A stretch of 64,000 nucleotides of DNA. Origin: Salinispora fenicalii. Lineage in GTDB: Bacteria; Actinomycetota; Actinomycetes; Mycobacteriales; Micromonosporaceae. The notes under the pieces are model-generated. The model worked only from the letters and a program-made list of their open reading frames with translations, was not told where the DNA came from and did no database searches. Both the position numbers and the translations under genes were made by a program. Shown one piece after another: positions 533 through 14,414 of the stretch. The stretch spans positions 1 to 64,000 of the forward strand of contig NZ_KI911472.1 of the NCBI RefSeq assembly GCF_000514815.1. The letters run 5' to 3'. Position 1 is the first letter of the stretch. Each line of letters opens with the position of its first letter.

Positions 533-640
533 ACTTTGTGACCTGCGCGTTTATCAGCCGTGGAAGCGGTTTTGCGTCGATCGAGTTGTGGTGTCGTATG
601 GCTGTGGTTGCATGCTGATGCCCTTGCCGAGCGGGTACGA
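533..640 (-). promoter_or_regulatory. Leader of CRISPR array 1
   Basis: The 27 nt next to the leader-side repeat (533-559, read on the minus strand) match 22 of 27 positions with the sequence just before the first repeat of array 2 (9943-9969). Shared core pieces are GGCTG, TAAA, GCAGGTCA and AAGT. A conserved block at this place in both arrays is what a leader looks like; it would carry the site for spacer insertion and perhaps the array promoter. The divergent cas3 gene starts just to the right. Confidence 0.7.
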
Positions 641-3445
641 ATGGAGGGGGTCGGATTGGGGGTCGACCATGACGGGGTCGATGCTGGGATTTGGGGCAAG
701 TCTAGCCATCTCCTGAGACCGTATCCGTTGCTCTGGCATTTGATTGATACCGCGGCCGTTGCTGGTGCGTTGTGGGATCGCTATCTGGCCCCGAACCAAC
801 GGAGGGTCATCACGGAGGAGCTGGCCACCGACGACAGTCACGCTAAATCGTTGATCATGTTTTGGGCGGGATTACACGATGTCGGCAAGGCAACCCCAGG
901 GTTTCAGAAGAAGGACGGGAGCGCGTTCGATGCGCTGCGGAGTGCTGGTTCGTATGAGGATGTTGTAGGCGATGGCTCGTTGAGGCACGACACCGCTGGT
1001 CAGTTGGCCATGCCGGGTCTTCTTGCTCCTTTGGGGTATCCGCGGTTGGTCAGGCGGGTCAGTGACCGCTTGGCCTACCGCGTCGCTCAGATCGTCGGCG
1101 GCCATCACGGGCGGTTCCAGCAAACCAGTGGTCCCCATGGTGGCCGGTTGCAGCTGGGCGAGGGCGGCTGGTCGAAGCAGCGCGCCGCCCTGGTGCGGGT
1201 GGTGCACGAGGCCGTGGGTTCACCCGAGCGGCCGCCGGCGATAGGTGCCGCGGCCAGTGTGCTGGTCACGGGGGTCGTGATCCTCGCGGACTGGCTGGCC
1301 AGCCAGGAGCACTTCTTGCGTCAGCAGTCTTCACGAGTGCCGCAGTACACGGGCGCCGAAGCTGTGTCGACTCATCTCGCGGTCTTATCCGCGCCCGCTG
1401 CCGCCCTGCTCGACGACGCCGGCTTAGGGTCACCGTCGTATCGGGCGTTGGGTTTCGAGGATCTGTTCCCGCACCGTCCGAACGCCCTTCAGCGGTCGAT
1501 CATTGAGGAGTTGCTGCCGGTGGTCGACAGTCCGGGTCTGTTGGTCGTGACGGCGGCTACGGGGGACGGGAAGACTGAAGCCGCTTTGGTGGCTGCCAAA
1601 AGGTTGGCCGAGGTATGCGGGGCGCACGGGTTTTTCTTCGCTTTGCCGACGATGGCGACCTCCGACGAGATGTATCGCCGGGTACGAGCGTTTGCCGCCC
1701 GGCTTGCCGCCGGTCCGGCGCCGGTCACGCTGCTGCACAGCATGTCGTGGTTGAACGCTGAGTACGAGGCTCGGGCGGTTGTCGACCCTGGTGGTGCGGC
1801 TGAGGTGGTGTCCGATGAACCCAGTGGTGATGTGGTGGCACCGGAGTGGCTGCGCGGCCCCAAGCGGGGGCTGCTGGCGCCCATGGCGGTGGGTACGGTG
1901 GACCAGGCGTTGCTTGCCGTGCTGACCACCAAGCACAACGCGCTGCGTCTGCTCGCTCTCTCGGGCAAGGTGTTCGTCGTTGACGAGGCGCATGCGTACG
2001 ACGACTTCACGACCTCCCTGCTGTGTGGCCTGTTGAACTGGTTGGGGGCCTACGGATGCCCGGTCGTCCTGCTGTCGGCGACGTTGCCCTCGTCGCAGGC
2101 GGCGACTCTTGTAGGGGCGTACGAAGAGGGTGCTGGCGTCGGGCCGACCAACACGCCTGTGCCCTATCCGGGTTGGACGTTCGTGCCGGCGATCCAGGGG
2201 CGTGACACGGTTTCGATCTCACCAACGATGCGGGAGGCCCTGGTCTCGGGTAGGACCGTGGAGTTCACGCTCGACGTACGCCCTGTTCGTCACCTCGTCG
2301 GGTCGGAGAGCGACCCAGCGGATCGTAGGGCCGTGGTGCGGCAGGTGCTGGCGCCGGTGGTCGAGCAGGGTGGGTGCGCTGCCGTGGTCTGCAACACGGT
2401 CAACGACGCCCAGCAGACCTACCGCGTCGTTCGTGACTGGGCGTCCGGGGGAGTGGATGTGGTGCTGCTGCACTCCCGTTTCCCGGCTCGGCGCCGGGAG
2501 GAGATTACGACGCAGATCATCGGTCGGCTGGGGAAGGACGGCAATCGTCCTAGATCGATGATCGTAGTTGCTACTCAGGTGCTAGAGCAGTCACTTGACC
2601 TGGACTTCGACCTGTTGGTGACGGATCTGGCGCCGATGGCGCAGCTGTTGCAGCGTGCCGGCCGGTGTCATCGACACCGCAGGACGAGGCCGCCTTGGGC
2701 TGCGCAACCGCGGGTGGTGGTTCTCGACCCGCGGGGCCCGGACGGTATCGAGCATGTCAGGCCAGCTGCTTGGGGAGACGTGTACGCGCGGTACCTGCTG
2801 CGGGCTACGCACCTTCGGCTGGCGGCGACCGACAGGATCGCCGTTCCGCACGCGGTGCAGAACCAAGTGGAAGCGGTGTATTCGCCACAGTCAGTCGACC
2901 ACGATCCCGTGCTAAGCGCCGAATACGACGAGTACCGCGCCGAGGCGATGGCCCTACGTGGGATGGCTGAACTCGGTGTCATTCCTGATCCCGCTCAGGT
3001 GGCCGACCTGGCAGCGCTGAGTCTTACCGAAACGCCGGAGTGGCGTGCATCAACCCGCCTGGGAGCTGAGTCGGAGCGGGTGCTCTGCTGCTACCTCGAC
3101 GCTGGCGGCAGGCAGTGGCTCGACCCCGAGCGGCGCACCCTGCTACCGCAGCGCGGGGCGAGACCCGACGGCCGCTTCTCTAGCCAAGAGGTACGGATGA
3201 TCCTCCAGGAGACGATCCCGCTCCGAACCGACATCCTCACGGGATATGACCCACCCACCACCTTGCCAGCATCCTGGAGCAACAACGCCTGGCTGAAGCG
3301 TCTCCGGCCGCTGTGGCTCCCGATCCTCCCCGACGGGCCCGGGTCGGCCGCTTGGGCTCGTCGATCAGTGCACCTTGACCCCGAACTCGGGCTGGTAGTT
3401 CTCTCCTCTTCGGAAGGACGGCAGCCTGGTGTGGTGAGTGAGTGA
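641..3445 (+). CDS. cas3: CRISPR-associated helicase/nuclease Cas3, type I-E
   Basis: Cas3 is recruited by Cascade bound to target DNA, then unwinds and degrades it. From the ATG at 641 it has 934 residues, the usual length for an HD-helicase fusion. The N-terminus carries IWGKS and the HD nuclease motif HDVGK (HD near residue 79), then GGHHGR. The SF2 helicase part has ATGDGKT near residue 304, DEAH near 447, and motifs QSLDLDFD and RAGRCHRH. A GTG at 560 would extend the frame by 27 residues, but that extension starts at the edge of the array leader and is not Cas3-like, so 641 is preferred; an intermediate TTG or GTG is possible. The stop overlaps the GTG of a 70-codon ORF. Confidence 0.95.
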   Translation: MEGVGLGVDHDGVDAGIWGKSSHLLRPYPLLWHLIDTAAVAGALWDRYLAPNQRRVITEELATDDSHAKSLIMFWAGLHDVGKATPGFQKKDGSAFDALRSAGSYEDVVGDGSLRHDTAGQLAMPGLLAPLGYPRLVRRVSDRLAYRVAQIVGGHHGRFQQTSGPHGGRLQLGEGGWSKQRAALVRVVHEAVGSPERPPAIGAAASVLVTGVVILADWLASQEHFLRQQSSRVPQYTGAEAVSTHLAVLSAPAAALLDDAGLGSPSYRALGFEDLFPHRPNALQRSIIEELLPVVDSPGLLVVTAATGDGKTEAALVAAKRLAEVCGAHGFFFALPTMATSDEMYRRVRAFAARLAAGPAPVTLLHSMSWLNAEYEARAVVDPGGAAEVVSDEPSGDVVAPEWLRGPKRGLLAPMAVGTVDQALLAVLTTKHNALRLLALSGKVFVVDEAHAYDDFTTSLLCGLLNWLGAYGCPVVLLSATLPSSQAATLVGAYEEGAGVGPTNTPVPYPGWTFVPAIQGRDTVSISPTMREALVSGRTVEFTLDVRPVRHLVGSESDPADRRAVVRQVLAPVVEQGGCAAVVCNTVNDAQQTYRVVRDWASGGVDVVLLHSRFPARRREEITTQIIGRLGKDGNRPRSMIVVATQVLEQSLDLDFDLLVTDLAPMAQLLQRAGRCHRHRRTRPPWAAQPRVVVLDPRGPDGIEHVRPAAWGDVYARYLLRATHLRLAATDRIAVPHAVQNQVEAVYSPQSVDHDPVLSAEYDEYRAEAMALRGMAELGVIPDPAQVADLAALSLTETPEWRASTRLGAESERVLCCYLDAGGRQWLDPERRTLLPQRGARPDGRFSSQEVRMILQETIPLRTDILTGYDPPTTLPASWSNNAWLKRLRPLWLPILPDGPGSAAWARRSVHLDPELGLVVLSSSEGRQPGVVSE

Positions 3446-3654
3446 GCAAAGCGCAACGAACGATGGACGTAGTTAGTGTGGCTTGTATCGCAATCATCAG
3501 CGCCTGCTTACGTTCAGGCCAGCTCGAGAGCTGTGGGGTCTCCACCGGGTTGGATGCGGCGGCTTGCGAGACGGCGATCTTGGGCTTGCCCGAGCCCTTC
3601 CCGCTGTACCTAGATTCGGCCAAAACCTTTTGGAGGAATTATGGAACGGTGTGA
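3442..3654 (+). CDS. 70-aa ORF coupled to cas3 stop, unknown
   Basis: The GTG start overlaps the cas3 stop in a GTGA arrangement, the same 4-nt coupling used through the rest of the cas operon. The product would be 70 residues with a short hydrophobic stretch near residues 10-22 (VVSVACIAIISAC) and five cysteines or so. I recognise no family. Its 3' end overlaps, in another frame, the start of the 34-residue peptide gene at 3641. It may be a real cas-linked small protein, or only an open frame that keeps ribosomes moving to the next start. Confidence is low because codon bias is weak and there is no homologue I can name. Confidence 0.35.
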   Translation: MSKAQRTMDVVSVACIAIISACLRSGQLESCGVSTGLDAAACETAILGLPEPFPLYLDSAKTFWRNYGTV

Positions 3655-3745
3655 AGCAGGGCTCGGCATCTCCCTCCGGTTGCCGGCTGCAACGGTGCTG
3701 ACCGTCGTGGTGATTGTGATCCATGTGCTCGTGACGTGGATGTGA
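3641..3745 (+). CDS. 34-aa single-span hydrophobic peptide in cas locus
   Basis: A 35-codon frame starts at ATG 3641, preceded by TGGAGGAATT, one of the best Shine-Dalgarno sequences in the window. The peptide begins MERCEAG and ends with an uninterrupted hydrophobic segment (TVLTVVVIVIHVLVTW, about residues 18-33), so it should insert once in the membrane. Size and layout resemble small membrane-active toxins of type I toxin-antitoxin systems, but no sequence family is recognised. A perfect hairpin follows 15 bases after its stop, and an orphan CRISPR half repeat lies about 110 bases downstream. A CRISPR-controlled toxin is an inference; an accidental short frame cannot be excluded. Confidence 0.5.
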   Translation: MERCEAGLGISLRLPAATVLTVVVIVIHVLVTWM

Positions 3746-3760
3746 GCCGTACGGAGTGAA

Positions 3761-3799
3761 GTGCGGGTTGCTGGCGGCAGCGCCGCCAGCAACCCGCAC
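3761..3799 (+). terminator. Perfect 18-bp hairpin between cas3 and cse1
   Basis: Bases 3761-3778 and 3782-3799 are exact reverse complements around a 3-nt AGC loop. There is no U-tract, which is usual for actinobacterial terminators. It would end transcription of cas3 and the small ORFs, separating them from cse1 and its partners. It could also be a regulatory stem. Confidence 0.7.
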
Positions 3800-3855
3800 A
3801 CCGCGCCAATATTGAGGAAGTTAATTGCCATGGGTCGTGGATGCGGCCGACGACC

Positions 3856-3869
3856 GGAGCACCCCCACG
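3856..3869 (-). repeat. Orphan half CRISPR repeat upstream of cse1
   Basis: These 14 bases are identical to the first half of the array repeat on the plus strand (GGAGCACCCCCACG), that is, to the 3' half of the repeat in crRNA sense, including the crRNA 5'-handle region. The other half is replaced by a different small palindrome (GGTGAG, GAT, CTCACC at 3869-3883). It is the only such partial copy I found outside the arrays and lies about 105 bases before cse1. Degenerate repeats at this position are the hallmark of CreA/CreR-type guide RNAs, or it may be an array relic. Confidence 0.7.
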
Positions 3870-3973
3870 GTGAGGATCTCACCGACTGTAAGTCATGTAG
3901 ATGACATGCAACTTCGCGTCGACACGTGAGTTTGGCAACGTCAGTGGGCCTTCAAGTGGAAGCGATCACGCTT

Positions 3974-5461
3974 ATGATCAAATCTTTCGACCTGACAGAC
4001 CAGCCGTGGATACCGGTGGTTGCCAAGAGTGAGTTGGAGCTGGTCGGCCTCCGTGAGCTTTTCGTTCGTGCGGCGGAGTTCGATGACCTGGCTGTTCCGG
4101 TGCCGCCGGCGGCGTCCGGGTTGTGGCGAATTCTGTACGCGATCACTGCACGGGTGACGGGCCTGGACATGCTGCGTGGGCCACAGTGGCGGCAGCGGCA
4201 GGAGTGGCTGCTTGACCAGGGCGGGTTTGCCGCAGGCGACGTCGGTGCCTACTTTGCGAAATACTCAGACCGCTTTGACCTGTTCGATGCGCTTCGTCCG
4301 TGGATGCAGGATCCCCGGCTTGCTGTCGAGTGTCCGAAGTCCTCCGGGGTCAACAAGCTGGTGTTCGACCGTCCAGCGGGCAACTCTCAGGTGTGGTTCG
4401 GCCATCACACGGATGCCGACGCGGTGGCTCTGGCTCCGGGGGAGGCGGCGTGGTACCTGATCGCGCAGCTGTATTACGGCGCATCTGGGCGGTGCAGCAG
4501 CCGTGAGGTGGCCGGGCAGAAGTTCGCCAACAGCAACGCCGGCCCGCTGCGGGGGGCCATGTCTTATCACCCGCTCGGGGAGAACCTGTTCGAGTCGCTG
4601 GTCGTGGGGGTGCCCCCACGGGTGTCATCAGGGCAGGACGAGGGGCTTGACCTGTGTCCGTGGGAGCGCGATGAGTTGCCGGATCCGCTCGGTGCGCCAT
4701 GGTCGGTGTCGTGGCCGTGTGGCGCGTTGACGGGCCGTGCGCGGCATGCTGTGCTGCTGGTTCCAGACGCCGCCGGTGAGGCCGTGTCGGATGCCTACGT
4801 CACCTGGGCGTGGCGGCTTCCCGGGGCGGCGTCCCCTGATCCGTACGTGGTGCGTCGGCAGAACAAGGAGGGCGGCTGGTACCAGCTGCCGGCCGACGGC
4901 TCCCGGGCTCTGTGGCGGGACGTTGACGCCCTGCTGGGCGGCAACACCGAGGTCAAGACGCATCGTCCCGACATCATGGCTGTCGCCGCCGACCTCGGTC
5001 TCGACGGACGGGTGCGCGCGTATGGCTTCGATCAAGACGGGCAGGCCAAGGATCGGCAGTGGTTCATCGCACTGACCCCACCAGTTCTTGGTTGGTTGAG
5101 TGAGCGCGACCCGGTGACCGCCGACGGCGTGGCCCTGTTGACCCGGGCGGCGGAGTCGATCGGCCGGCGTGTCGGGGCCGCACTGCGGCAGGCTTGGCGG
5201 GAGTTGGTTAGCGTCAAGGACCGAGAGGGCCCGTGGGCTCATACGGGTGAGGCGTACTACTGGACGCGAGCCGAGGCGGTGTTCTGGGAGCACGTGCGAG
5301 ACGGCCGTTTCGCCGAGGGCGGGCGGGCTTTCGCGCGGTTAGGGCACGAGGCCATCGACCACGCCGCGGATGGCGATGCCAGCTCACCGCGGCTGGTGCG
5401 GGCCACGCAGACAGCGCATCGGCTGTTGACAACTCCGTCGAGGAAGGGATCGGGCGCGTGA
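3974..5461 (+). CDS. cse1: Cascade large subunit Cse1 (Cas8e)
   Basis: Cse1 is the large subunit of type I-E Cascade; it recognises the PAM and recruits Cas3. The product is 495 residues and opens MIKSFDLTDQPWIPV, the characteristic start of the family. An upstream GTG in the same frame (3926) is less likely because the family start and a GGAA-type ribosome site favour ATG 3974. The stop TGA shares its last base with the ATG of cse2. It is the first gene of the Cascade operon, downstream of the hairpin and half-repeat interval, so its promoter should lie in 3800-3970. Confidence 0.95.
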   Translation: MIKSFDLTDQPWIPVVAKSELELVGLRELFVRAAEFDDLAVPVPPAASGLWRILYAITARVTGLDMLRGPQWRQRQEWLLDQGGFAAGDVGAYFAKYSDRFDLFDALRPWMQDPRLAVECPKSSGVNKLVFDRPAGNSQVWFGHHTDADAVALAPGEAAWYLIAQLYYGASGRCSSREVAGQKFANSNAGPLRGAMSYHPLGENLFESLVVGVPPRVSSGQDEGLDLCPWERDELPDPLGAPWSVSWPCGALTGRARHAVLLVPDAAGEAVSDAYVTWAWRLPGAASPDPYVVRRQNKEGGWYQLPADGSRALWRDVDALLGGNTEVKTHRPDIMAVAADLGLDGRVRAYGFDQDGQAKDRQWFIALTPPVLGWLSERDPVTADGVALLTRAAESIGRRVGAALRQAWRELVSVKDREGPWAHTGEAYYWTRAEAVFWEHVRDGRFAEGGRAFARLGHEAIDHAADGDASSPRLVRATQTAHRLLTTPSRKGSGA

Positions 5462-6123
5462 TGTCCACGGAGATTGAAGAACGGCCATCCGACCGGTTCG
5501 CGAGGCGGGTCACCGAGCGGTGCCGCCGTGATCGTGGTCAGCGTGCGGCGCTGCGTCGAGGCCTACGTCGTCCTCCCGAGCAGGCGCACACCATGCATGC
5601 CGTTGTCGCCCCATTGCTGTCGGCGTCGGTGACGCAGGAACACGAGTATGCCCACTACGCCGTAGCGGCGATGATCGCCGCGTCGGTTCGTGACAGGCCA
5701 AACGTCGAATCCAGCGACGTCGAGCCAGCGAACGTCACTGACGCCGAGCAGGTAGCCGCAGCGGACGCCGACATCACGCCGGACTACCGCCCCAATCTGG
5801 GGCAGTCGTTGGCCTGGGCGGTGTGCCGGCCGGGCCTTGGCCGTCGGGCGATGAACCGAGCTACCGCGGAGAAGCGACTGCATCTGCTGGTCCGGCAGGG
5901 CTACCCCGGCGTCTACCAACACCTAGCCGGGGTGGTGCGGCATCTCGCCATGGTCGAGGTCCAGGTGAACTGGGGGCAACTCCTTGACGACCTCTGTCAG
6001 TGGCGGTACCGCCGTGACCAGGTCGCCAAGCGATGGCTCCAGTCCTACTACCGCACCCTGCACGAAGCCGACCGCCGCGCCGAGCAGCAGAAATACAACC
6101 CGAGCCTGGAGGAGCCCGCATGA
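5461..6123 (+). CDS. cse2: Cascade small subunit Cse2 (Cas11)
   Basis: Cse2 forms the small-subunit dimer along the belly of Cascade and steadies the R-loop. The product is 220 residues, Arg-rich and helical, within the usual 160-230 range of the family. The start ATG 5461 overlaps the cse1 stop by one base; a GTG one codon earlier is also possible. The motif-like stretch LGRRAMNRATAEKRLHLLV and the C-terminal helix with YRRDQVAKRW are typical of actinobacterial Cse2. It ends in an ATGA overlap with cas7e, so translation of the operon is coupled. Confidence 0.92.
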   Translation: MSTEIEERPSDRFARRVTERCRRDRGQRAALRRGLRRPPEQAHTMHAVVAPLLSASVTQEHEYAHYAVAAMIAASVRDRPNVESSDVEPANVTDAEQVAAADADITPDYRPNLGQSLAWAVCRPGLGRRAMNRATAEKRLHLLVRQGYPGVYQHLAGVVRHLAMVEVQVNWGQLLDDLCQWRYRRDQVAKRWLQSYYRTLHEADRRAEQQKYNPSLEEPA

Positions 6124-7262
6124 CCGCCCGTTACGTCGACATCCATGTGCTGCAGACCGTCCCATACGCCAATCTCAACCGCGACGATCTGGGCTCACCC
6201 AAGACTGTGCGCTTCGGCTACGCCGATCGCACCCGGGTCTCCAGCCAATCCTGGAAGCGAGCCGTTCGGCGGGAGCTGGAGGAATCGTCAGGTGACAAGG
6301 CCAAGCGCACCCGGCGGCTGCCGCAGGCCATCCAGGCTCGGCTCACCGGGCCCGACTGGGACTCGGAGCTGGCGGCCTTCGCGGCGACGCAGGTCATGGC
6401 CACGCTCGCCACGATCGCGGTCAAGGCCGACGGTTTCAAGGTGGACAAAGCCACCGGTGAGGCGCAGGTGCTGTTCTACCTGCCGGAGCGGGCCTTCGAG
6501 ATGCTCGCTGATGTCTGTATGCAGCAGCGTGATCGGCTCATCGGCCTGCGGTCCGGCGCGCTCAAGCTCAAAAGGGGTGAGGCGCCTTTGCCTGCCGACG
6601 CCGTCCGCGCGGCGATGGAGCACCGCAGCGATGTGATCAACCTGTTCGGGCGGATGCTGGCGGAACTGCCCGGCAGCAACGTCGACGGGGCGGTCCAGGT
6701 TGCCCACGCGTTCACCACCCACGGCACGGACCCGCAGGTCGACTTCTTCACTGCCGTCGATGACCTCAAGCAGGACGCCGACCAGGCCGGCAGCGGGCAC
6801 ATGAACAGCGCCGAGTTCAGCACCGGCACGTTCTACCGGTACGCCAGCGTCAACCTGGAAGACCTTGCCCACAACCTCGGCGACCCGGCCACCGCGGTCG
6901 AGCTGACCAGGGTGTTCCTGTCGGCGTTCATCACCGCCATGCCGCAGGCCAAAAAGAACGCCACCGCACCGTTCACGGTTCCCGAACTGGCCTACATCGC
7001 GGTTCGCACCGACCGACCGGTATCACTGGCCAGCGCCTTCGAAACCCCGGTACGGGCCACATTCGACAGCGGATACGCCGAGCCGTCACGTCGGCAGCTC
7101 GCCGAGTACGCCGGACAGATCTACCGACTAATCGGCGACCAGGGAATGGTCTACCACGGTTGCGCTAGCGTCGACGACAAAGGCCTGGAACAGCTCGGCG
7201 AGACTCGCCAGAGCTTCGACAACCTGATCGCCACCGCCGTCGACAAACTGAGGGCGAAATGA
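6120..7262 (+). CDS. cas7e: Cascade backbone subunit Cas7e (Cse4/CasC)
   Basis: Cas7e forms the six-copy helical backbone that holds the crRNA spacer. The 380-residue product starts MTARYVDIHVLQTVPYAN and contains LNRDDLGSPKT, both standard for Cas7e/Cse4. The longer open frame upstream belongs to cse2 in another phase, so ATG 6120, overlapping the cse2 stop, is the start. The stretch with FFTAVDDL and GSGHMNSAEFSTGTFYRYA matches the conserved core of the family. The stop overlaps the cas5e start (ATGA). Confidence 0.95.
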   Translation: MTARYVDIHVLQTVPYANLNRDDLGSPKTVRFGYADRTRVSSQSWKRAVRRELEESSGDKAKRTRRLPQAIQARLTGPDWDSELAAFAATQVMATLATIAVKADGFKVDKATGEAQVLFYLPERAFEMLADVCMQQRDRLIGLRSGALKLKRGEAPLPADAVRAAMEHRSDVINLFGRMLAELPGSNVDGAVQVAHAFTTHGTDPQVDFFTAVDDLKQDADQAGSGHMNSAEFSTGTFYRYASVNLEDLAHNLGDPATAVELTRVFLSAFITAMPQAKKNATAPFTVPELAYIAVRTDRPVSLASAFETPVRATFDSGYAEPSRRQLAEYAGQIYRLIGDQGMVYHGCASVDDKGLEQLGETRQSFDNLIATAVDKLRAK

Positions 7263-8032
7263 CGGGGCTGCTGCTGCGGTTGGCCGGGCCCATGCAATCG
7301 TGGGGTGACCACAGCACCTTTAGCGTCCGAGACACCGGCACCGTCCCCACCCGATCGGCCATGATCGGCATCATCGCCGCCGCTCAGGGCAGGCACCGCG
7401 GCGAGCCGCTCAGCGACCTCGCCCCGGTGCAGTTCACTGTCCGCGTCGACCGGCCCGGCACGGTCATGTCCGATTTCCACACCGTCGGCGGTGGTGCGCC
7501 GCCGGAACGGACCGTACCGACAGCAGAAGGCAAACGCAGGACGGCGGGTGCCGGCACCATCGTGTCGCGTCGGTTCTACCTGGCAGACGCGGTGTTCACC
7601 GTCGCGGTCACCGGCCCGGACGATCTCGTGGGTCAAATTCACACGGCCCTGAACAACCCGGTCTGGGGTCCGTATCTCGGACGCCGCTCCTGCCCCGTGG
7701 CGCACCCGTTCCTGGTCTCCGGCCCGGTCCCCGACCCCGTCGGCCACCTAGAACACCTGCCGCTCAACCGACGCCGCCCCCCGGGCGATGAGGAGACCGT
7801 CAGGGTGGACTTCGTCACCGGGGCACCCCACGGCGACGGCTCCATCAGCCGGATGACACTCAACGACGTACCCATGGAACCAGTGTCCGGAAGCCCTGAC
7901 CCGCGTCGACGGCGATACCTCACCCGCCAGGTTTACGTCACCACCCGCAGCCTGCCCGCCGATCTGTGCGCCGGCACCGGCCTCAACTACCTGAACGCAC
8001 TGGACGAGCACCTGCGAGGAGTCCGAACGTGA
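7259..8032 (+). CDS. cas5e: Cascade subunit Cas5e (CasD)
   Basis: Cas5e caps the Cascade backbone and grips the 5' handle of the crRNA. The 257-residue product begins with LLLRLAGPMQSWGDHSTF, the signature of the RAMP-fold Cas5e N-terminus, followed by the glycine-rich DFHTVGGG region. The start ATG overlaps the cas7e stop. Its own stop overlaps the GTG of cas6e. Length and order fit the standard I-E operon. Confidence 0.95.
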   Translation: MTGLLLRLAGPMQSWGDHSTFSVRDTGTVPTRSAMIGIIAAAQGRHRGEPLSDLAPVQFTVRVDRPGTVMSDFHTVGGGAPPERTVPTAEGKRRTAGAGTIVSRRFYLADAVFTVAVTGPDDLVGQIHTALNNPVWGPYLGRRSCPVAHPFLVSGPVPDPVGHLEHLPLNRRRPPGDEETVRVDFVTGAPHGDGSISRMTLNDVPMEPVSGSPDPRRRRYLTRQVYVTTRSLPADLCAGTGLNYLNALDEHLRGVRT

Positions 8033-8649
8033 TCGCCTGGCTGACCCGGATCGCACTTGACCTCCGCCATTCGGCGGCACGACGGGACCTACGCGACACG
8101 ACCGCCCTGCACCGTCGCGTGATGTCGCTGGTGCCGGACGGTCTGGGCGAACAGCCACGACACCACGCGGGCGTGCTCTTCCGGCTCGACCACACCACCA
8201 CTGGCCCGATGCTCCTGGTCCAGACCACCCTGCCACCTGACCCGAATCGGCTGCCCGACGGCTACGCCACCGTCGACACCCGCGACATCAGCCCGCTACT
8301 GAAGGCCCTGACCAACGGAATGGCGATGCACTACCGGATCGCTGCCAACGCATCCAAACGAGCGTGGAAGGGCAACAGCGCCGGCAAGGTCATCGCCTTG
8401 TCTGGCCAGCAGGCCGAGCAGTGGTGGCAGCGCAAGGCCGAGGCCACCGGACTCGATCTGCGTCACCTGCGCGCCCAGCCACAACCGGCCGCTCGCGGAC
8501 GCGCCATCCCCGTACGTCACGCCATCACCCTGTTCGAAGGACAAGCGGTGATCACCGACGCGGACCAGGTCCGCGCAGCGGTGCTGGCCGGCATCGGCCG
8601 CGGACGCTCGTTCGGCTGCGGTCTACTCAGCCTCGCACCGATGCGATGA
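8029..8649 (+). CDS. cas6e: CRISPR RNA endonuclease Cas6e (CasE)
   Basis: Cas6e cuts the repeat stem-loop in pre-crRNA and stays bound to the 3' handle. The product has 206 residues from GTG 8029, which overlaps the cas5e stop; the in-frame ATG at 7966 lies inside cas5e and is not family-like. The N-terminus WLTRIALDLRHSAARRDL and the early His in TALHRRVM agree with Cas6e, where such a His acts in cleavage. The C-terminal glycine-rich loop GIGRGRSFGCGLLSLAP is the RAMP signature. Confidence 0.94.
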   Translation: MIAWLTRIALDLRHSAARRDLRDTTALHRRVMSLVPDGLGEQPRHHAGVLFRLDHTTTGPMLLVQTTLPPDPNRLPDGYATVDTRDISPLLKALTNGMAMHYRIAANASKRAWKGNSAGKVIALSGQQAEQWWQRKAEATGLDLRHLRAQPQPAARGRAIPVRHAITLFEGQAVITDADQVRAAVLAGIGRGRSFGCGLLSLAPMR

Positions 8650-9608
8650 GCACCAGCGCCCAGCGGCGACTCGCCGCACCGACCCTGGCCATGCTGCCCC
8701 GCGTGGCGGACTCGCTTAGCTTCCTCTACGCCGACATCGTTCGGATCGTCCAAGACGACACCGGAGTCCTCGCCCAGGTAGATACCCCGAAAGGAGCCGA
8801 ACGCGTCTATCTGCCCACAGCCGCGCTCAGCTGCCTTCTCCTCGGACCCGGCACCTCGATCACCCACCACGCCCTGTCCACCCTCGCCCGCCACGGCACT
8901 ACCGTCGTCTGCGTCGGCTCCGGCGTCGTCCGCTGTTACGCCGGCATCACCCCCACCTCTCTGACCACCAACTGGCTGGAAAAGCAGGCCCGCTGCTGGG
9001 CCGACGACAACACCCGACTGCACGTAGCGATACGCATGTACGAGCAACGCTTCGGCGAAGCCGTCCCCGAAGGCACCACGCTGGCCCAGCTCCGCGGTAT
9101 GGAAGGCCAGCGTATGAAAACGCTCTACCGCCTGTTGGCTCAGAAGTATCGAACCGGCAAATTCCGCCGCAACTACGACCCCAACAAGTGGGACACCCAG
9201 GACCCGGTCAACCTTGCGCTATCAGCGGCCAGCGCCTGCCTATATGGAGTGGTCCACGCCGTCATCCTCGCTTTGGGCTGCTCACCGGCGCTCGGCTTCG
9301 TACACAACGGCACCCAACACGCCTTCGTCTACGACATCGCCGACCTCTACAAGGCCAAGGTCACCGTGCCGCTCGCCTTCTCCATGAGTACCTCCGCCCA
9401 ACCCGAACGCGACGTACGCCGCAAGCTGCGCGACGGGTTCCGTCTGCTCAAGCTGATGCCGACGATCGTTACCGACATCCAACATCTACTCGACCCCGAC
9501 AGCACGCTTAAACAGCGGCAACCTGCCGCCGAAATCACCTCACTCTGGGATCCAGAGATGGGAGCCATGCCGTCCGGAGTTAACTACAGCTCAGACCCTT
9601 GGGACTAG
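8646..9608 (+). CDS. cas1: Integrase Cas1, type I-E
   Basis: Cas1 with Cas2 inserts new spacers at the leader end of the array. The 320-residue product starts at ATG 8646 in an ATGA overlap with cas6e; the longer frame upstream is cas6e in another phase. Visible metal-site candidates are a Glu in LRGMEGQRMK, His in GTQHAFVYD and Asp in DIADLYK, the same order as E141, H208 and D221 of the E. coli protein. It is followed after one base by cas2. Confidence 0.95.
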   Translation: MSTSAQRRLAAPTLAMLPRVADSLSFLYADIVRIVQDDTGVLAQVDTPKGAERVYLPTAALSCLLLGPGTSITHHALSTLARHGTTVVCVGSGVVRCYAGITPTSLTTNWLEKQARCWADDNTRLHVAIRMYEQRFGEAVPEGTTLAQLRGMEGQRMKTLYRLLAQKYRTGKFRRNYDPNKWDTQDPVNLALSAASACLYGVVHAVILALGCSPALGFVHNGTQHAFVYDIADLYKAKVTVPLAFSMSTSAQPERDVRRKLRDGFRLLKLMPTIVTDIQHLLDPDSTLKQRQPAAEITSLWDPEMGAMPSGVNYSSDPWD

Positions 9609-9609
9609 C

Positions 9610-9951
9610 ATGGCTTCCCTTATCGTCCTGGCAACCACCGCCGTACCCGATCACTTAAGAGGCGCACTCAGCCGCTGGATGATCGAAGTAACACCCGGCA
9701 TGTTCGTCGGAACGCTCTCAGCCAAGGTCCGCGACGAGCTATGGAACGCAGCAAGCAGCGTCGTCGGCGACGGCGCCGCCGTCCTTATCCACCCAGACGA
9801 CAACGAGCAAGGCTTCTCTCTACGGACCGCAGGAGCACGCAGACGCCGCCCGGTCGACTTCGACGGCCTCACCCTAGTAGCCATGAGCCCCAATGAACAC
9901 CACGACGACGCTTCCACCCCAGCAGAAACCGTCTGGCCGGAAGGCTGGTAA
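9610..9951 (+). CDS. cas2: Cas2, type I-E (CasB-type ferredoxin fold)
   Basis: Cas2 is the structural dimer of the spacer-integration complex. The product is 113 residues and begins MASLIVLATTAVPDHLRG with SRWMIEVTPGMFVG, matching the I-E subfamily. The start follows the cas1 stop by one base. The last codons and stop (9943-9951) are part of the conserved sequence that abuts CRISPR array 2, so only 18 bases separate the gene from the first repeat. Coding end and leader therefore overlap. Confidence 0.94.
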   Translation: MASLIVLATTAVPDHLRGALSRWMIEVTPGMFVGTLSAKVRDELWNAASSVVGDGAAVLIHPDDNEQGFSLRTAGARRRRPVDFDGLTLVAMSPNEHHDDASTPAETVWPEGW

Positions 9952-9969: not shown

Positions 9970-11642
9970 GTCCTCCCCACGCACGTGGGGGTGCTCCGGC
10001 ACACACCTGGCATGTGGTGTGGCAATTTGAGTCCTCCCCACGCACGTGGGGGTGCTCCGGCCGAGGGCACGATGGTTGACTTGGAAGACGGGTCCTCCCC
10101 ACGCACGTGGGGGTGCTCCGTTGCCTCGCCAGAGGTTTCGGCCGCTCTCGCCGTCCTCCCCACGCACGTGGGGGTGCTCCGTCGATCGGATCATCGTCGC
10201 AGGACACAGGTCAGTCCTCCCCACGCACGTGGGGGTGCTCCGTTGTGGTCCTACGCCCTGGTGGTCTTGCTGGCGTCCTCCCCACGCACGTGGGGGTGCT
10301 CCGAAGTCGCCCATGGCTGGTTGCCGGATGTCATCGTCCTCCCCACGCACGTGGGGGTGCTCCGGTAGAGAACCCCCGAGTTAATAGCTCCGCGTGGTCC
10401 TCCCCACGCACGTGGGGGTGCTCCGACGGCGATCAGCTCCTGGGCGTCGGCGAGGGCGTCCTCCCCACGCACGTGGGGGTGCTCCACCAACCCAACACGG
10501 CCGGACGGACCCGCTGAGGTCCTCCCCACGCACGTGGGGGTGCTCCGACGGCGATCAGCTCCTGGGCGTCGGCGAGGGCGTCCTCCCCACGCACGTGGGG
10601 GTGCTCCACCAACCCAACACGGCCGGACGGACCCGCTGAGGTCCTCCCCACGCACGTGGGGGTGCTCCGTCATCGACCACGGACAACATGCCGTTGAGCG
10701 GGTCCTCCCCACGCACGTGGGGGTGCTCCGCGACCCTGCGGTACGGGGTGGCGGTGACCGCCGTCCTCCCCACGCACGTGGGGGTGCTCCGTACCCGGTG
10801 AGGGCTTGGTGCTGGGTGGTGGCGTCCTCCCCACGCACGTGGGGGTGCTCCGATTGCGTGTTCGAACGTCACGATCAGTCGTCAGTCCTCCCCACGCACG
10901 TGGGGGTGCTCCGTGACCTCTTCCATGCCCAAGGGACAGTCGCACGTCCTCCCCACGCACGTGGGGGTGCTCCGTGACTGATCTGGATGGCCTTGATGGG
11001 CCGACTGTCCTCCCCACGCACGTGGGGGTGCTCCGTACGCCGACGAGTTCGCTTTCAACACCCTGCAGTCCTCCCCACGCACGTGGGGGTGCTCCGTCCG
11101 ACCGCACCCAGGAGGCCGCCCGGGTCGTGTCCTCCCCACGCACGTGGGGGTGCTCCGACGCTGGTATCCCACTCTGCGGCCAGTTCCCGGTCCTCCCCAC
11201 GCACGTGGGGGTGCTCCACAACGCGCCGCCGCCGCAACGCCCCGACGTACGTCCTCCCCACGCACGTGGGGGTGCTCCGCCACGGGCCAGCAACTCCTAG
11301 CGGTCCTCGCGGTCCTCCCCACGCACGTGGGGGTGCTCCCAAGTGGATGCGCCGGGTCGAACGTGTGCTCAGGTCCTCCCCACGCACGTGGGGGTGCTCC
11401 GATGCTGATGGGAGTGTCTGACGAACGCGCCTAGTCCTCCCCACGCACGTGGGGGTGCTCCGGCGATCGAGACCTTCCGGACCGGCCGCCCGGGTCCTCC
11501 CCACGCACGTGGGGGTGCTCCGGTCTCGATAGAGCGCCGGTCCTCCGCCGATAGGTCCTCCCCACGCACGTGGGGGTGCTCCGCCCGACACGGTGACCAG
11601 CGGTATGTCCGCATGTCCTCCCCGCGCACGTGGGGGTGCTCC
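9970..11642 (+). CRISPR. CRISPR array 2, type I-E, 28 repeats
   Basis: Twenty-eight repeats of 28 nt (GTCCTCCCCACGCA then CGTGGGGGTGCTCC) run from 9970 to 11642 with 27 spacers of mostly 33 nt, two of 32 nt near the far end. The last repeat (11615) has one change, A to G in the left stem, which fits a trailer end and a leader on the left next to cas2. The repeat is the exact reverse complement of that in array 1, so both arrays share one Cas6e/Cascade. Two adjacent spacer-repeat units are present twice (10397-10518 and 10519-10640). Confidence 0.99.
10397..10640 (+). repeat. Tandem duplication of two spacer-repeat units
   Basis: The 122-bp block 10397-10518 is repeated exactly at 10519-10640, so the spacers at 10425 and 10547 are identical, as are those at 10486 and 10608. 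This shows recombination between repeats inside the array rather than new acquisition. Confidence 0.97.
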
Positions 11643-11734
11643 GCAACATTCAGATTCGGCGAAGCCGAACTCCTTTATCCACGTGGCGTCCGGGGTAGCG
11701 CTGCTACGGCCGGAGAAGAACAGGTGTTCGCGGC

Positions 11735-12693
11735 GATGCTCGATGGCTGGCAACCCAGCAGACGGCGCGGAACCTGTCGTCGGCCATGATCACGGCGCGG
11801 TTGAGGGTGATCTGGGCGTTCGCCGAGCACGTCAGCAGCGACAGCGACCAGTCCGAGGCGGTCAAGGTCGTCACCCGCTATCACAAGACGCTGATCTGGG
11901 AGCAGACCAGGCACATGCTGCGGCTTCGCAGCGCACTGCGGGAGTACTTCCCAGCCGCGTTGGCCGCGTTCGCTGACCTGACCGCGTCGGAGGCGCTGGA
12001 GTTGCTGGCCAGGGCACCTTAGCCGGCTTCGGCCGCCCGGCTGCCCTTGACGAGGATTCTCGCTGCGGTTAAGCGGGCACGGCGCCACCACGCCGCGGTC
12101 AAGGCCGAGGCGATCCGAGACGCGCTACGGGCCGACCACCTGGGCCAGCCGCCTGTGGTGACGACCGCGTATGCTGCCATGGTCCGTGCTCAGGTCGCCT
12201 TCCTGACCACCCTCAACACCGAGATCAAGGCTATGCAAGAGCAGGTGAGGACCCATTTAGGGCGGCACCCGGACGCTGCATCTACGTCAGCCAGCCCGGG
12301 CTGAGCGCTGTGCTCGGCGCCCGGGTGCTCGCCGAGTTCGGAGACGACAAGACCCGTTACGCCAGCGTCAAGGTCCGCAAGAGCTACGCCGGCACCAGCC
12401 CGATCACGCGGCAGTCCGGCAAGAGGAAGGTCGTGCTGGCCCGCCACGTGCACAACAACCGGCTCGTCGACGCAGTTGGCCTGCAAGCGCTCACGGCCAT
12501 ACGTGCCTCCCCCGGTGCCCGCCGCTACTACGACCAACTCCGCGCCCGCGGCGTCGGCCACCGCGCCGCGCTGCGCCAGCTCGGTAACCGACTCGTCGGC
12601 GTGCTCCACGGCTGCTTGAAAACCAAGACCACCTACGACGAAGAGACCGCCTGTCCCAACCTCACAGAACGCCTCGAATACGCCGCAGCTTGA
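11735..12693 (+). pseudogene. Decayed IS110-family transposase
   Basis: Three successive reading frames encode consecutive parts of an IS110/IS116/IS902-type DEDD transposase. Recognisable pieces are EAVKVVTRYHKTLIWEQTR and LRLRSALREYFPAAL (11786-12022), RILAAVKRARRHH (12047 on) and the C-terminal part with GLSAVLGARVLAEFGDD and SGKRKVVLARH (12290-12693). Frame changes fall near 12022 and 12280, and the N-terminal catalytic region is missing. The relic abuts the trailer end of CRISPR array 2 on one side and a broken tRNA on the other. It cannot encode a working enzyme. Confidence 0.85.
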
Positions 12694-12757: not shown

Positions 12758-12762
12758 GTGGC

Positions 12763-12835
12763 TCCGGTGGCTGGATTCGAACCAGCGCATGGGCGGATTA
12801 ACAGTCCGCTGCCCTATCGACTGGGCGACACCGGA
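12763..12835 (-). tRNA. tRNA-Asn(GTT)
   Basis: A 73-nt cloverleaf: acceptor TCCGGTG with CACCGGA, anticodon stem GCGGA/TCCGC closing loop CTGTTAA, and a TTCGAAT T loop. Confidence 0.9.
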
Positions 12836-12840
12836 ATGGT

Positions 12841-12910
12841 CGCGTGTGCGGAACTCGAACACGCTTCATCGCCGTGAAAGGACGAGGGCCTACCCATAGC
12901 CGAACGCGCG
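12841..12910 (-). tRNA. tRNA-Glu(TTC), slightly degenerate
   Basis: Loop CTTTCAC gives anticodon TTC in a stem TCGTC/GGCGA with one G-T pair. The acceptor stem has one mismatch (C-A at pair 5) and the whole is 70 nt, so it may be functional but is eroded compared with its neighbours. Confidence 0.7.
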
Positions 12911-12915
12911 TGTGT

Positions 12916-12986
12916 GCCCCGAGCTGGTGTCGAACCAGCGACCTTCCGCGTGTCGAACGGACGCTCTCCCGCTGAGCTATCGGGGC
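12916..12986 (-). tRNA. tRNA-Val(GAC)
   Basis: Acceptor GCCCCGA/TCGGGGC is perfect; D arm GCTCAGCGGGAGAGC; T arm GCTGG/CCAGC. The anticodon loop TCGACAC has GAC in place but C instead of the near-universal U at position 33. Confidence 0.8.
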
Positions 12987-12989
12987 GGG

Positions 12990-13065
12990 AGCGGGGGCGG
13001 GATTCGAACCACGCGATCTCCGGCTTATGAGGCCGGCGAGGACGACCGAACTCCTCTACCCCGCG
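12990..13065 (-). tRNA. tRNA-Met(CAT), initiator-like
   Basis: The 5' end CGCGGGG and 3' CCCCGCT recall initiator tRNA with an unpaired first base. Anticodon stem CCGGC/GCCGG closes loop CTCATAA. The T stem pairs poorly, so function is uncertain. Confidence 0.7.
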
Positions 13066-13068
13066 AGT

Positions 13069-13139
13069 GCCGCCGGGAGGAATCGAACCTCCGCAATCCG
13101 GATTAAAAGTCCGGAGCCCGGCCATCAGGCGCCGGCGGC
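13069..13139 (-). tRNA. tRNA-Lys(TTT)
   Basis: Perfect acceptor GCCGCCG/CGGCGGC, loop CTTTTAA with anticodon TTT in a TCCGGA/TCCGGA stem, and T arm GGAGG/CCTCC. Confidence 0.9.
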
Positions 13140-13149
13140 ATCGTGCTGC

Positions 13150-13221
13150 GCCCCGCGCTGGACTCGAACCAGCGACACCCGCTTTAGAAGAGCGGTGCTC
13201 TATCCGCTGAGCTAGCGGGGC
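13150..13221 (-). tRNA. tRNA-Arg(TCT)
   Basis: Perfect acceptor GCCCCGC/GCGGGGC; anticodon stem CCGCT/AGCGG with loop CTTCTAA; canonical D and T arms. Confidence 0.92.
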
Positions 13222-13228
13222 AGATGGT

Positions 13229-13300
13229 ACGCCGCCCGGGACTCGAACCCGGAGCCTGCTGAGTAAGAGTCAGTAGCTCTACCGATTGAGCTAACGGCGC
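13229..13300 (-). tRNA. tRNA-Lys(CTT)
   Basis: Acceptor GCGCCGT with GCGGCGT includes terminal G-T pairs; loop CTCTTAC carries anticodon CTT; T arm CCGGG/CCCGG. The anticodon stem has one A-C mismatch at its base. Confidence 0.82.
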
Positions 13301-13305
13301 GCGGC

Positions 13306-13390
13306 GGTGAGGGAGGGAGTCGAACCCCCAAGGCCTTTCGACCCAGACCGTTTTCGAGACGTCGCCCGGCACCTATCGGGTGGCCTCACC
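13306..13390 (-). tRNA. tRNA-Ser(CGA)
   Basis: A class II tRNA of 85 nt with the long variable arm expected for serine. Acceptor GGTGAGG/CCTCACC is perfect and loop CTCGAAA holds anticodon CGA. Confidence 0.9.
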
Positions 13391-13392
13391 GT

Positions 13393-13465
13393 CGGGCTGG
13401 CCGGATTCGAACCGGCGACCTCTCGCTCCCAAAGCGAGCGCGCTACCAAGCTGCGCTACAGCCCG
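13393..13465 (-). tRNA. tRNA-Pro(TGG), first copy
   Basis: Acceptor CGGGCTG/CAGCCCG, D arm with GCGCAGCTTGGTAGCGC, anticodon stem CTCGC/GCGAG around TTTGGGA, and T arm GCCGG/CCGGC. Confidence 0.92.
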
Positions 13466-13470
13466 TTGGT

Positions 13471-13544
13471 CGGGATGACCGGTTTCCCACCGATGCTCTC
13501 CCGCCCCGAGGATGTGGCAGCCTACCAAGCTGCGCCGCATCCTG
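13471..13544 (-). pseudogene. Degenerate tRNA, Pro(GGG)-like
   Basis: Six of seven acceptor pairs (CAGGATG/CATCCCG) and a proline-type D arm GGCGCAGCTTGGTAG remain, but the anticodon stem holds an A-A clash, position 33 is C, and the T loop reads TGGGAAA instead of TTCGAAT. GGG stands at the anticodon place. Probably a decayed copy of the proline tRNA next to it. Confidence 0.55.
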
Positions 13545-13550
13545 ATTTGT

Positions 13551-13623
13551 ACCCCCGGCGCGATTCGAACGCGCGGCCTCTGGATTCGTAATCCAGCGCC
13601 CTATCCATCTGGGCCACGGGGGT
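13551..13623 (-). tRNA. tRNA-Arg(ACG)
   Basis: Acceptor ACCCCCG/CGGGGGT, anticodon stem CTGGA/TCCAG with loop TTACGAA, T arm GCGCG/CGCGC. The A34 would be edited to inosine by TadA in the host. Confidence 0.92.
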
Positions 13624-13628
13624 GTGGT

Positions 13629-13702
13629 GTCGTCGGGTGGGTTCGAACCACCGCATCTCCGAGTTATCAGCTCGGTGCCTTCACCTTCTTGGCCACGACG
13701 AC
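13629..13702 (-). tRNA. tRNA-Ile(GAT)
   Basis: Perfect acceptor GTCGTCG/CGACGAC, loop CTGATAA in stem CCGAG/CTCGG, and a canonical T arm GGTGG/CCACC. Confidence 0.92.
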
Positions 13703-13747
13703 AGTGTGGACAGACGGGTCCCTTACCCGTGCGTGAGCGGCCCGGTG

Positions 13748-13819
13748 CCTGCCTGCACCGGCTCGGTGCCGCCTTTCTCGGTGTGACGGGCCGGCGCTGT
13801 AGCCCCTGAGTCACGGCGC
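13748..13819 (-). pseudogene. Divergent tRNA-like, Asp(GTC)-like
   Basis: A 72-nt region with a tRNA 5' half (GCGCCGT, GACTCAGGGGCTACAGC) and GTC at the anticodon place in loop CCGTCAC. The anticodon stem has two mismatches, the T loop is CACCGAG, and the acceptor strands pair poorly. Probably not aminoacylated. Confidence 0.45.
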
Positions 13820-13823
13820 ACGT

Positions 13824-13891
13824 GGATCGACGGGGAGTCGAACCCCGCATGCGAGGCTTGCAAGGCGACGCTGTGCACCGGCATTCGACCC
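13824..13891 (-). tRNA. tRNA-Ala(TGC)-like, short D arm
   Basis: Acceptor GGGTCGA/TCGATCC pairs fully with one wobble and the T arm CGGGG/CCCCG is perfect. Loop CTTGCAA has anticodon TGC, but the anticodon stem has two mismatches and the D arm is shortened to GCCGGTGCACAGC (68 nt total). Confidence 0.6.
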
Positions 13892-13942
13892 GTATCGCGG
13901 CCCTCCGCAGGCCCGCCCGCGCACAAGGGTGCCCGGCAGGGT

Positions 13943-14024
13943 GCGCTCGGGGGGAGTCGAACCCCCATGCCTGTTCGGCACCGGCGTCTGAGGCCGGCGT
14001 GTATCCCCGTTCCACCACGAGCGC
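13943..14024 (-). tRNA. tRNA-Leu(CAG)
   Basis: Class II cloverleaf of 82 nt with a long variable arm. Acceptor GCGCTCG/CGAGCGC, stem CCGGC/GCCGG around CTCAGAC, T arm GGGGG/CCCCC. Confidence 0.92.
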
Positions 14025-14029
14025 GTGGT

Positions 14030-14102
14030 GCCGACGCGGGGTCTCGAACCCCGGGACCTCTCTGTTATGAGCGAAGCGCTCTACCACCTGAGCTACGTCG
14101 GC
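14030..14102 (-). tRNA. tRNA-Met(CAT), elongator-like, encodes CCA
   Basis: Perfect acceptor GCCGACG/CGTCGGC followed by ACCAC, so CCA follows the discriminator base in the DNA; the other members checked lack this. Loop CTCATAA; one mismatch in the anticodon stem. Confidence 0.85.
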
Positions 14103-14110
14103 AGGCCAGA

Positions 14111-14183
14111 GCCGGTGGCGGGAATCGAACCCGCGTCCGCCGCATTACAAGTGCGGTGCTCAACCACCGTGAGCTACACCGGC
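14111..14183 (-). tRNA. tRNA-Thr(TGT)
   Basis: Acceptor GCCGGTG/CACCGGC, anticodon stem CCGCA/TGCGG around CTTGTAA, T arm GCGGG/CCCGC. Confidence 0.92.
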
Positions 14184-14231
14184 ACACCAAGCGTCGACCG
14201 CGGGCGGGACGCGGCCGGCGATTCGGTGAGT

Positions 14232-14305
14232 GCCCTCGACACGATTCGAACGTGCACTGCGCGGCACCTCATGCCGCTGCCTCCTACCAGTTGGGCTACG
14301 AGGGC
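14232..14305 (-). tRNA. tRNA with anticodon GAG (Leu codon), class I shape
   Basis: Acceptor GCCCTCG/CGAGGGC is perfect and the stem GCGGC/GCCGC closes loop ATGAGGT, putting GAG at 34-36. A leucine tRNA should have a long variable arm, yet this one has only five bases (GCAGT). Its identity is therefore unclear. Confidence 0.7.
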
Positions 14306-14310
14306 GTCGC

Positions 14311-14381
14311 TGCGGGCGGAGGACTCGAACCTCCTCTTTCCGGTCCAGAGCCGGACGTGCTGCCCGTTGCACCAGCCCGCA
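14311..14381 (-). tRNA. tRNA-Gln(CTG)
   Basis: Acceptor TGCGGGC/GCCCGCA, anticodon stem TCCGG/CCGGA with loop CTCTGGA, T arm GGAGG/CCTCC. Confidence 0.9.
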
Positions 14382-14414
14382 TCGCGCCGGCGGGGTGATG
14401 GCCCGCCGGCTGGG

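Follow-up and report, generated by a model that had tools for sequence, protein, structure and literature searches.

The 528-nt interval between cas3 and cse1 in the type I-E CRISPR-Cas locus of Salinispora fenicalii is likely to be an addiction cassette of the CreTA type, in which a small membrane peptide would be kept silent by Cascade. The cassette is probably functional in relatives and decaying in the genome analysed here. Read from cas3 to cse1, it would consist of a peptide gene for a putative toxin, a terminator-like palindrome and, on the opposite strand, a mini-CRISPR with the order psiR2-psiS-psiR1. In relatives the mini-CRISPR would give rise to a crRNA-like RNA, probably processed by Cas6e, and Cascade carrying this RNA would bind an AAG-flanked sequence in the region of the peptide's 5´ leader and ribosome site, using nucleotides 1–5 and 7–11 plus partial pairing beyond. 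The peptide would thereby be silenced, and it would be set free when Cascade is lost or inhibited.

The cas3-cse1 interval of the window

The stretch analysed (64,000 nt, here called the window) starts at a contig end of a 5.23-Mb genome in 39 contigs. Its type I-E locus has the order array 1 (minus strand), cas3, the 528-nt gap, cse1, cse2, cas7, cas5, cas6e, cas1, cas2 and array 2. Gene cas3 (560–3445, plus strand; Pfam Cas3_HD, Cas3-like_C_2 and Cas3_C) is given from the listed ORF start at 560, and its true start probably lies somewhat downstream. The cse1 (cas8e) gene (3974–5461, plus) begins with the ATG at 3974 and matches Pfam CRISPR_Cse1, and the frames of cse2, cas7, cas5, cas6e, cas1 and cas2 (5458–9951, plus) are open and have Pfam matches. 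Nine repeats are visible in array 1 (6–532, minus) at the contig start and 28 in array 2 (9970–11643, plus); both arrays have the repeat GTCCTCCCCACGCACGTGGGGGTGCTCCG. The module is located in the cas3-cse1 gap, beside a cas8-type gene, as is characteristic of CreTA. About 1.1 kb beyond array 2 starts a group of 22 tRNA genes predicted by ARAGORN, which covers 2.9 kb (12759–15672, minus), includes many anticodons and resembles a tRNA island. Near it lies an Rfam match to the actinobacterial sRNA Ms_AS-4 (57.6 bits; 12291–12372, minus).

The first-pass annotation had described a gene for a single-span peptide of 34 residues, a perfect palindrome of 39 nt and an orphan half CRISPR repeat in this gap, and all three are present. 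The peptide gene (3641–3745, plus; MERCEAGLGISLRLPAATVLTVVVIVIHVLVTWM) follows the ribosome site TTGGAGG at 3630–3636; its product is hydrophobic and would act as a CreT-like toxin spanning the membrane once. The palindrome (3761–3799) has two arms of 18 nt that are 100% complementary and are separated by 3 nt, and its stem is retained in relatives with an altered sequence. Located between two convergent units, it is probably a transcription terminator, perhaps a bidirectional one. Automated scans of positions 3300–4100 for sigma-70 promoters and T-tail terminators found nothing, and a promoter search upstream of the target in relatives gave weak, inconsistent candidates and no consistent motif.

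The half repeat (CGTGGGGGTGCTCCG; 3855–3869, minus) is identical to the last 15 nt, the 3´ half, of the repeat of both arrays. Outside the arrays the sole other match with at most two mismatches in the 64 kb is found at 4603 (two mismatches). The half repeat is part of psiR1, a degenerate repeat (3855–3883, minus) whose hairpin can still be folded and whose 8-nt 5´ handle, GTGCTCCG, is that of the locus's own repeat, as expected for the crRNA-like gene outside the arrays that belongs to a CreTA module. It is followed by the 32-nt pseudo-spacer psiS (GTCGTCGGCCGCATCCACGACCCATGGCAATT; 3823–3854, minus) and by the remnant of a second degenerate repeat, psiR2, placed approximately at 3800–3822 (minus). 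The putative remnant of the CreA target is located at 3613–3626 (minus) and its AAG PAM (CTT on the plus strand) at 3627–3629, just upstream of the ribosome site as in relatives. Neither a second repeat nor a target of the pseudo-spacer had been recognised by eye in the first pass; both are degenerate in the window and visible in relatives.

The cse1 leader contains a dyad, GTCAT-GTAG-ATGAC (3892–3905), that was noticed by eye and is possibly a regulator site of the cas operon. The dyad, in the form TGTCAT...(C)GACA or GTCAT-GTAG-ATGAC, was also seen by eye in L003, L004, L005, L032, L033 and L034, irrespective of the presence of the cassette.

The cassette in relatives and its probable decay in the window

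Cse1 was used to search 160 genomes of the genus, 28 of which had a match. Besides the window genome itself, the close ones were G066 (S. oceanensis, L055; 96% identity), G024 (86%) and G139 (83%), and the rest had 27–34%. Among 354 genomes of the family, 72 had a match, adding G305 (82%), G341 (60%) and G353 (58%). Three relatives have the peptide, the palindrome and the half repeat together, in the same order and in the cas3-cse1 slot: G139 (L005) from the same genus, and G305 (L032) and G353 (L033) from two other genera of the family. An alignment of related type I-E loci had been proposed as a check on the element, and in these three loci both the peptide and the half repeat are conserved. 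Two of the other relatives, G066 and G024, are without the cassette and have the cse1 leader directly behind the cas3 stop, and a third, G341 (L056), has kept mini-array and target and has no recognisable peptide ORF.

The peptides of G139, G305 and G353 have 36–38 aa, compared to 34 aa in the window, and the alignment of the four shows that A-G-L, L-P and the hydrophobic span are conserved. The pN/pS values for the three pairs of window, G139 and G305 were 0.32, 0.40 and 0.41 in the peptide frame; the two remaining frames gave 0.65 to 4.1. This pattern of substitutions points to purifying selection on the protein in the window lineage. Within the genus, the peptide was found in two of the 160 genomes, the window genome and G139, both times at the cas3-cse1 slot. 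A profile search in 397 genomes of the order with E up to 1 gave matches in 188 genomes, nearly all of them short fragments within long frames; only those in the window and G139 were convincing, and G305 and G353 were absent among the matches listed. Among plasmids and phages, no match to the G139 peptide was found with E up to 1.

The comparison with S. oceanensis suggests how the cassette is exchanged. In an identity scan in 200-nt steps from 700 to 8100, the two sequences were 91–100% identical except for 2700–3500 (81–85%) and 3700–4100 (67–70%). The first step of the latter tract contained 152 gapped columns, and the cassette sits between the two tracts of low identity. The cse1 leaders, compared by eye, fall into two forms, one in the window, G139 and G305, which carry the cassette, and the other in S. 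oceanensis and G024, which do not; identities of 0.65–0.73 in the leader step were obtained for every pair and do not on their own separate the two forms. It is probable that the low-identity tract from 2700 to 4100 represents a replacement of about 1.4 kb that exchanged the cassette, and not a simple deletion. A second dip in identity to S. oceanensis (84–85%) was observed at 8100–8500, around cas6e and the start of cas1, and is perhaps another recombination tract.

In relatives, the minus strand carries a psiR1 with an 8-nt handle, a pseudo-spacer of about 32 nt and then a second hairpin, psiR2. Six to seven of the eight handle positions are identical to those of the own repeat. The psiR1 of G139 tracks its own repeat (repeat handle GTGTTCCG, psiR1 handle GTGTTCCA), and the tracking is not close in G305, which has the same repeat as G139 and the psiR1 handle GTGCTCCA, in G353 (repeat handle GTGGTCCG, psiR1 handle GTGCGCCG) and in L056 (repeat handle GTGCGCCG, psiR1 handle GTGCTCCA). 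Nucleotides 1–5 and 7–11 of the pseudo-spacer match an AAG-preceded site at all ten positions in G139 and G353, where the complement of the PAM, CTT, directly precedes the ribosome site of the peptide. The seed match amounts to 9/10 with AAG in L056 (L034, G341) and to 8/10 with AAG in G305. Between G139 (psiS ACTGTCGGTGA, target ACTGTAGGTGA) and G305 (psiS GTCGTCGGCCG, target GTCGTAGGTAG), both sides of the pair differ. With the location, a crRNA-like gene outside the arrays, a psiR2 hairpin and a complete seed match, G139 and G353 show those features of CreTA that can be read from sequence, and a CreTA-like mechanism would fit them.

The window copy looks different. Its psiR2 folds with -3.8 kcal/mol, the weakest value among 27 loci (defined below), the other 26 having -9.5 or lower, and 0.74 of its own region folds equally well; the psiR2 hairpin, a common but not universal feature of CreTA, has been lost here. 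In 20 of the 26 other loci the energy of psiR2 is in the lowest tenth of the own region, and in the remaining six, including G353, it is not unusual for the own GC-rich region. With seven PAMs tried, no ungapped site matching at least 8/10 seed positions of the window pseudo-spacer was found in the gap; the remnant described above, counted ungapped by hand, matches at 7/10 at best, with AAA replacing AAG. The exact AAG-plus-seed site, AAGGTCGTNGGCCG, was not found intact in the own genome. If one target base is missing at the flipped position 6, the target (GTTTT-GGCCG-A-ATC) and psiS (GTCGT-C-GGCCG-C-ATC) agree at 11 of 13 pairing positions, the mismatches being at seed positions 3 and 4. Since only one of 2000 shuffled pseudo-spacers reaches 11 on this gapped target, and the 26 pseudo-spacers from minus-strand loci reach 10 at most, the site looks like a remnant and not like a chance match.

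The window peptide ends 2–4 residues before those of the three relatives, the reading frame being changed at the very end as judged by eye. In the mechanism proposed here, the lost psiR2 hairpin, a target that lacks one base and has two mismatches in the seed, and the shortened peptide would together have put this copy out of use, and the cassette is probably decaying. The simplest story would be that the toxin was weakened and that the target of the antitoxin was lost afterwards. Because it lacks the psiR2 hairpin and the intact seed that G139 and G353 both have, we file the window copy apart from working CreTA members, as a homologous copy that is probably decaying. The idea of a CRISPR-guarding module, put forward in the first-pass annotation, is well supported by the relatives as regards the kind of element, with its peptide, mini-array and AAG-flanked seed, but the state of psiR2 and of the seed gives no support to a working guard in the window genome itself.

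It is rather unlikely that the window copy is nevertheless fully functional, which would require that Cascade tolerates the missing base at the flipped position 6 as well as two seed mismatches and that one repeat is sufficient, as in Haloarcula hispanica. The intact psiR1 handle with its foldable stem, the residual gapped match, the open frames of the peptide and the cas genes and the reported existence of a creA with one repeat (PMC8501985) are consistent with such a function. Each of the ten seed nucleotides is needed in H. hubeiense (PMC8501985), and this argues against it, as do the mismatches at positions 3 and 4, the lost hairpin and the peptide being shorter than in all three relatives.

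Guide and target pairing in actinobacterial cse1 loci

Pairing between guides and targets was analysed in 94 actinobacterial cse1 loci, comprising 79 loci of named genomes from a scan with an alignment of seven Cse1 proteins, the window, and 14 stretches of other genomes. All places matching the handle of the own repeat at 6 or more of 8 positions were taken as guide candidates (12.4 per locus). A seed match of 10/10 with AAG was found in the own upstream region of 16 of the 94 loci, which include the near-duplicates L067/L128 and L096/L132, compared to none in 15 permutations of the regions among loci. At 9/10 or better with AAG, the count was 28 loci (permutation mean 1.1, maximum 3), and at 8/10 or better 41 loci (mean 9.3, maximum 21). 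Single 8/10 matches such as that of G305 would therefore not be safe on their own. An element at 9/10 or better is missing from 66 of the loci, and two further ones, L088 (10/10) and L091 (9/10), were found under another handle rule and are outside these counts. When no PAM rule was applied, AAG was the triplet before a 10/10 seed in 16 cases, CCG came next with two, and each of the others among the best 12 triplets occurred once.

In four of the 28 loci (G325, L059, L108 and L130) guide and target are not both on the minus strand. The 26 minus-strand loci do not include these four and include G283 and L098, which were obtained with a looser handle rule (5/8); L098 was later dropped as an artefact (pair distance -498).

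In the pairing of Cascade with its target, each sixth base is flipped out. For nucleotides 6 and 12 this is also stated in the work on haloarchaeal CreTA (PMC8501985). Twenty-two of the 26 minus-strand loci were used for a test of periodicity, the near-duplicates L128, L078 and L132 (judged by eye) having been dropped and other kinship kept. At positions 13–17, which had not been selected for, 70 of 110 positions match, compared to a null mean of 30.6 and a maximum of 47 in 2000 permutations. Positions 19–23 have 46 of 110 matches (null mean 29.5), the excess coming from positions 20 and 22. Positions 6, 12, 18 and 24, by comparison, match in 5, 5, 6 and 1 of the 22 loci, with null means of 5.0, 5.5, 5.6 and 4.8. 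We interpret this 5+1 periodicity as the pairing pattern of Cascade and are not aware of another simple explanation. The pairing beyond the selected positions provides an independent line of sequence evidence for the reading of these guides by Cascade.

A chance combination of a terminator, a random ORF and a piece of a decayed array could be imagined from the window copy alone, which shows decay. The conservation of the cassette in three genera and the results of the permutation and periodicity tests leave this explanation with a negligible probability.

Known Cascade-guided modules and the layouts of the slot

CreTA modules account for the persistence of costly CRISPR systems and for the way in which these punish anti-CRISPRs. 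The founding work on CreTA reportedly predicted further bacterial modules. In the reports consulted here, worked-out modules come from haloarchaea, Acinetobacter and Citrobacter, and our literature searches gave no report of an actinobacterial CreTA, judging from titles and the beginnings of abstracts. An actinobacterial form that recurs, has translated membrane peptides and follows a clear pairing rule would provide a searchable signature and cultivable hosts. It would also offer, among close relatives, a natural series from intact through decaying to absent cassettes for testing the addiction idea.

The closest precedent, likened by its layout, is the translated I-E CreT of Citrobacter rodentium, where a 96-bp ORF in the cas3-casA gap arrests growth, deletion of the gap rescues a defect of Cascade and the ORF has, according to the authors, no homology to any annotated sequence (PMC12055562). 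Both systems are of type I-E and have gaps of similar size (495 bp in C. rodentium, 528 in the window), a short ORF (96 bp, which must be translated, and 105 bp, respectively), a crRNA-like element on the opposite strand and a PAM-flanked partial target in the upstream region of the toxin (PMC12055562). In C. rodentium, creA lies on the upstream side of the ORF and ATG serves as PAM, whereas the mini-array of the window type lies downstream behind the palindrome, in convergent orientation, and uses AAG (PMC12055562). Toxicity has been demonstrated in C. rodentium, while in the window type the peptide is a putative toxin and the window copy looks decayed (PMC12055562). Host range and the diversity of the membrane peptides also differ from that case.

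Alternatively, the peptide might be an accessory small membrane protein of immunity, for example a phage-sensing or effector partner, that is silenced by Cascade until an anti-CRISPR acts. Ten peptides (33–47 aa) were compared with the Pfam and NCBIfam models and none gave a match above the cut-off; single-span hydrophobic peptides without a family match would suit such a role, and so would the restriction of the peptide to the cas locus in its genus. The resemblance of the layout to that of C. rodentium, whose translated ORF arrests growth (PMC12055562), argues for a toxin, and the occurrence of different peptide sequences in one slot fits toxins better than a dedicated partner. We regard the accessory role as quite improbable and a toxin as the preferred reading.

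The haloarchaeal CreTA modules of H. hispanica and H. hubeiense mostly have two degenerate repeats around the pseudo-spacer, with a one-repeat creA described for H. hispanica, and the seed rule of nucleotides 1–5 and 7–11 was established by mutation in H. hubeiense (PMC8501985). The cassette follows the same seed rule and, as in H. hispanica, is located in a gap upstream of cas8 (PMC8501985). The haloarchaeal CreT is an RNA that sequesters rare tRNAs (PMC8501985); such a toxin was set aside here because the window-type peptide is conserved at the protein level. CrePA resembles the cassette in having a protein toxin that is silenced by Cascade with CreA and freed by anti-CRISPRs, but CreP is typically a KilA-N-domain protein acting on FtsZ (PMC12737573), whereas the peptides here are single-span and small. 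CrePA was rejected on the basis of this size and of the ten peptides having no KilA-N-type or other domain over the cut-off. CreR, a crRNA-like RNA encoded in cas loci including those of type I-E, has a partial match to a promoter, generally comes without a toxin gene and represses cas genes (PMC12737573, PMC13131331).

To compare layouts, 25 minus-strand loci were combined with the window and G305, which were added by hand. The distance between psiS and target is bimodal in these 27 loci, with 94–138 nt in 14 compact and 206–280 nt in 13 wide ones. Between target and pseudo-spacer, ORFs of 20–60 codons with a Kyte-Doolittle mean of at least 1.6 over 17 residues were searched for. Such a hydrophobic mini-ORF was found in 11 of the 13 wide loci, compared to 0–9% of shuffled segments of the same loci, the exceptions under this rule being L081 and G233. 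None was found in the 14 compact loci, which is weak evidence alone since there is little room there (shuffles 0–0.5%). Four of the 11 loci (window, G139, G305 and G353) are one homologous family, and the ORF of another of the 11, L078, looks degenerate. For G353, G315 and L058 the script picked start codons other than the likely ones. By eye, the peptides look unrelated across lineages, which include the window type, Actinomadura sp. DC4, Nocardiopsis, Thermobifida cellulosilytica and others. Perfect palindromes with arms of 8–18 nt are present in 9 of the 13 wide loci and in one compact locus (L104, 8 nt). The compact loci (L067, L128, L061, L102, L101, L104, L073, L106, L082, L074, L095, L132, L096 and L056) look like candidates for CreR-like autoregulation, and the wide layout can be read as such a device into which a toxin gene and a terminator have been inserted. 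Compact loci were seen upstream of cse1 in Streptomyces, Actinomadura, Acrocarpospora and others.

These compact loci bear on the question, left open in the first pass, whether the interval is of the CreTA or the CreR kind. In the window genome, too, the mini-CRISPR might repress the promoter of the downstream cas operon, with the peptide being a leader peptide or a passenger. That about half of the loci are compact and without a hydrophobic ORF is expected for autoregulation of cas genes; CreR has been described for type I-E systems (PMC13131331), the position of the target is upstream of cse1 and transcription from it would run toward cse1, and L056 retains mini-array and target without a recognisable peptide. 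In the window lineage, unlike in CreR (PMC12737573, PMC13131331), target and mini-array are separated by a conserved peptide gene and a palindrome. Further points against autoregulation are that this palindrome is strong and separates the peptide from cse1, that the peptide appears to be under purifying selection and its ribosome site abuts the target, that hydrophobic peptides of differing sequence recur in the wide slot, and that relatives without the cassette retain the cse1 leader. Because of the peptide, the terminator-like palindrome and the position of the target beside the ribosome site, we favour the toxin version for the window lineage and consider pure autoregulation unlikely there; the CreR-like compact layout is found in other actinobacteria.

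For the Actinomycetota in general, we give even chances to the following model. The cas3-cse1 gap of type I-E systems would be one standard slot, occupied either by a Cascade autoregulator alone or by this same autoregulator together with an exchangeable, sequence-diverse single-span membrane toxin and a terminator. Homologous recombination at the tail of cas3 and the leader of cse1 would swap the contents, and a cassette would die by losing its target, its second repeat and the end of its toxin, as in the Salinispora-type genome.

L078 (Nocardiopsis sp. CNR-923), upstream of cse1, is near to the locus L075 as judged by eye, with a degenerate peptide ORF and a seed match of 9/10, and is apparently a second decaying cassette.
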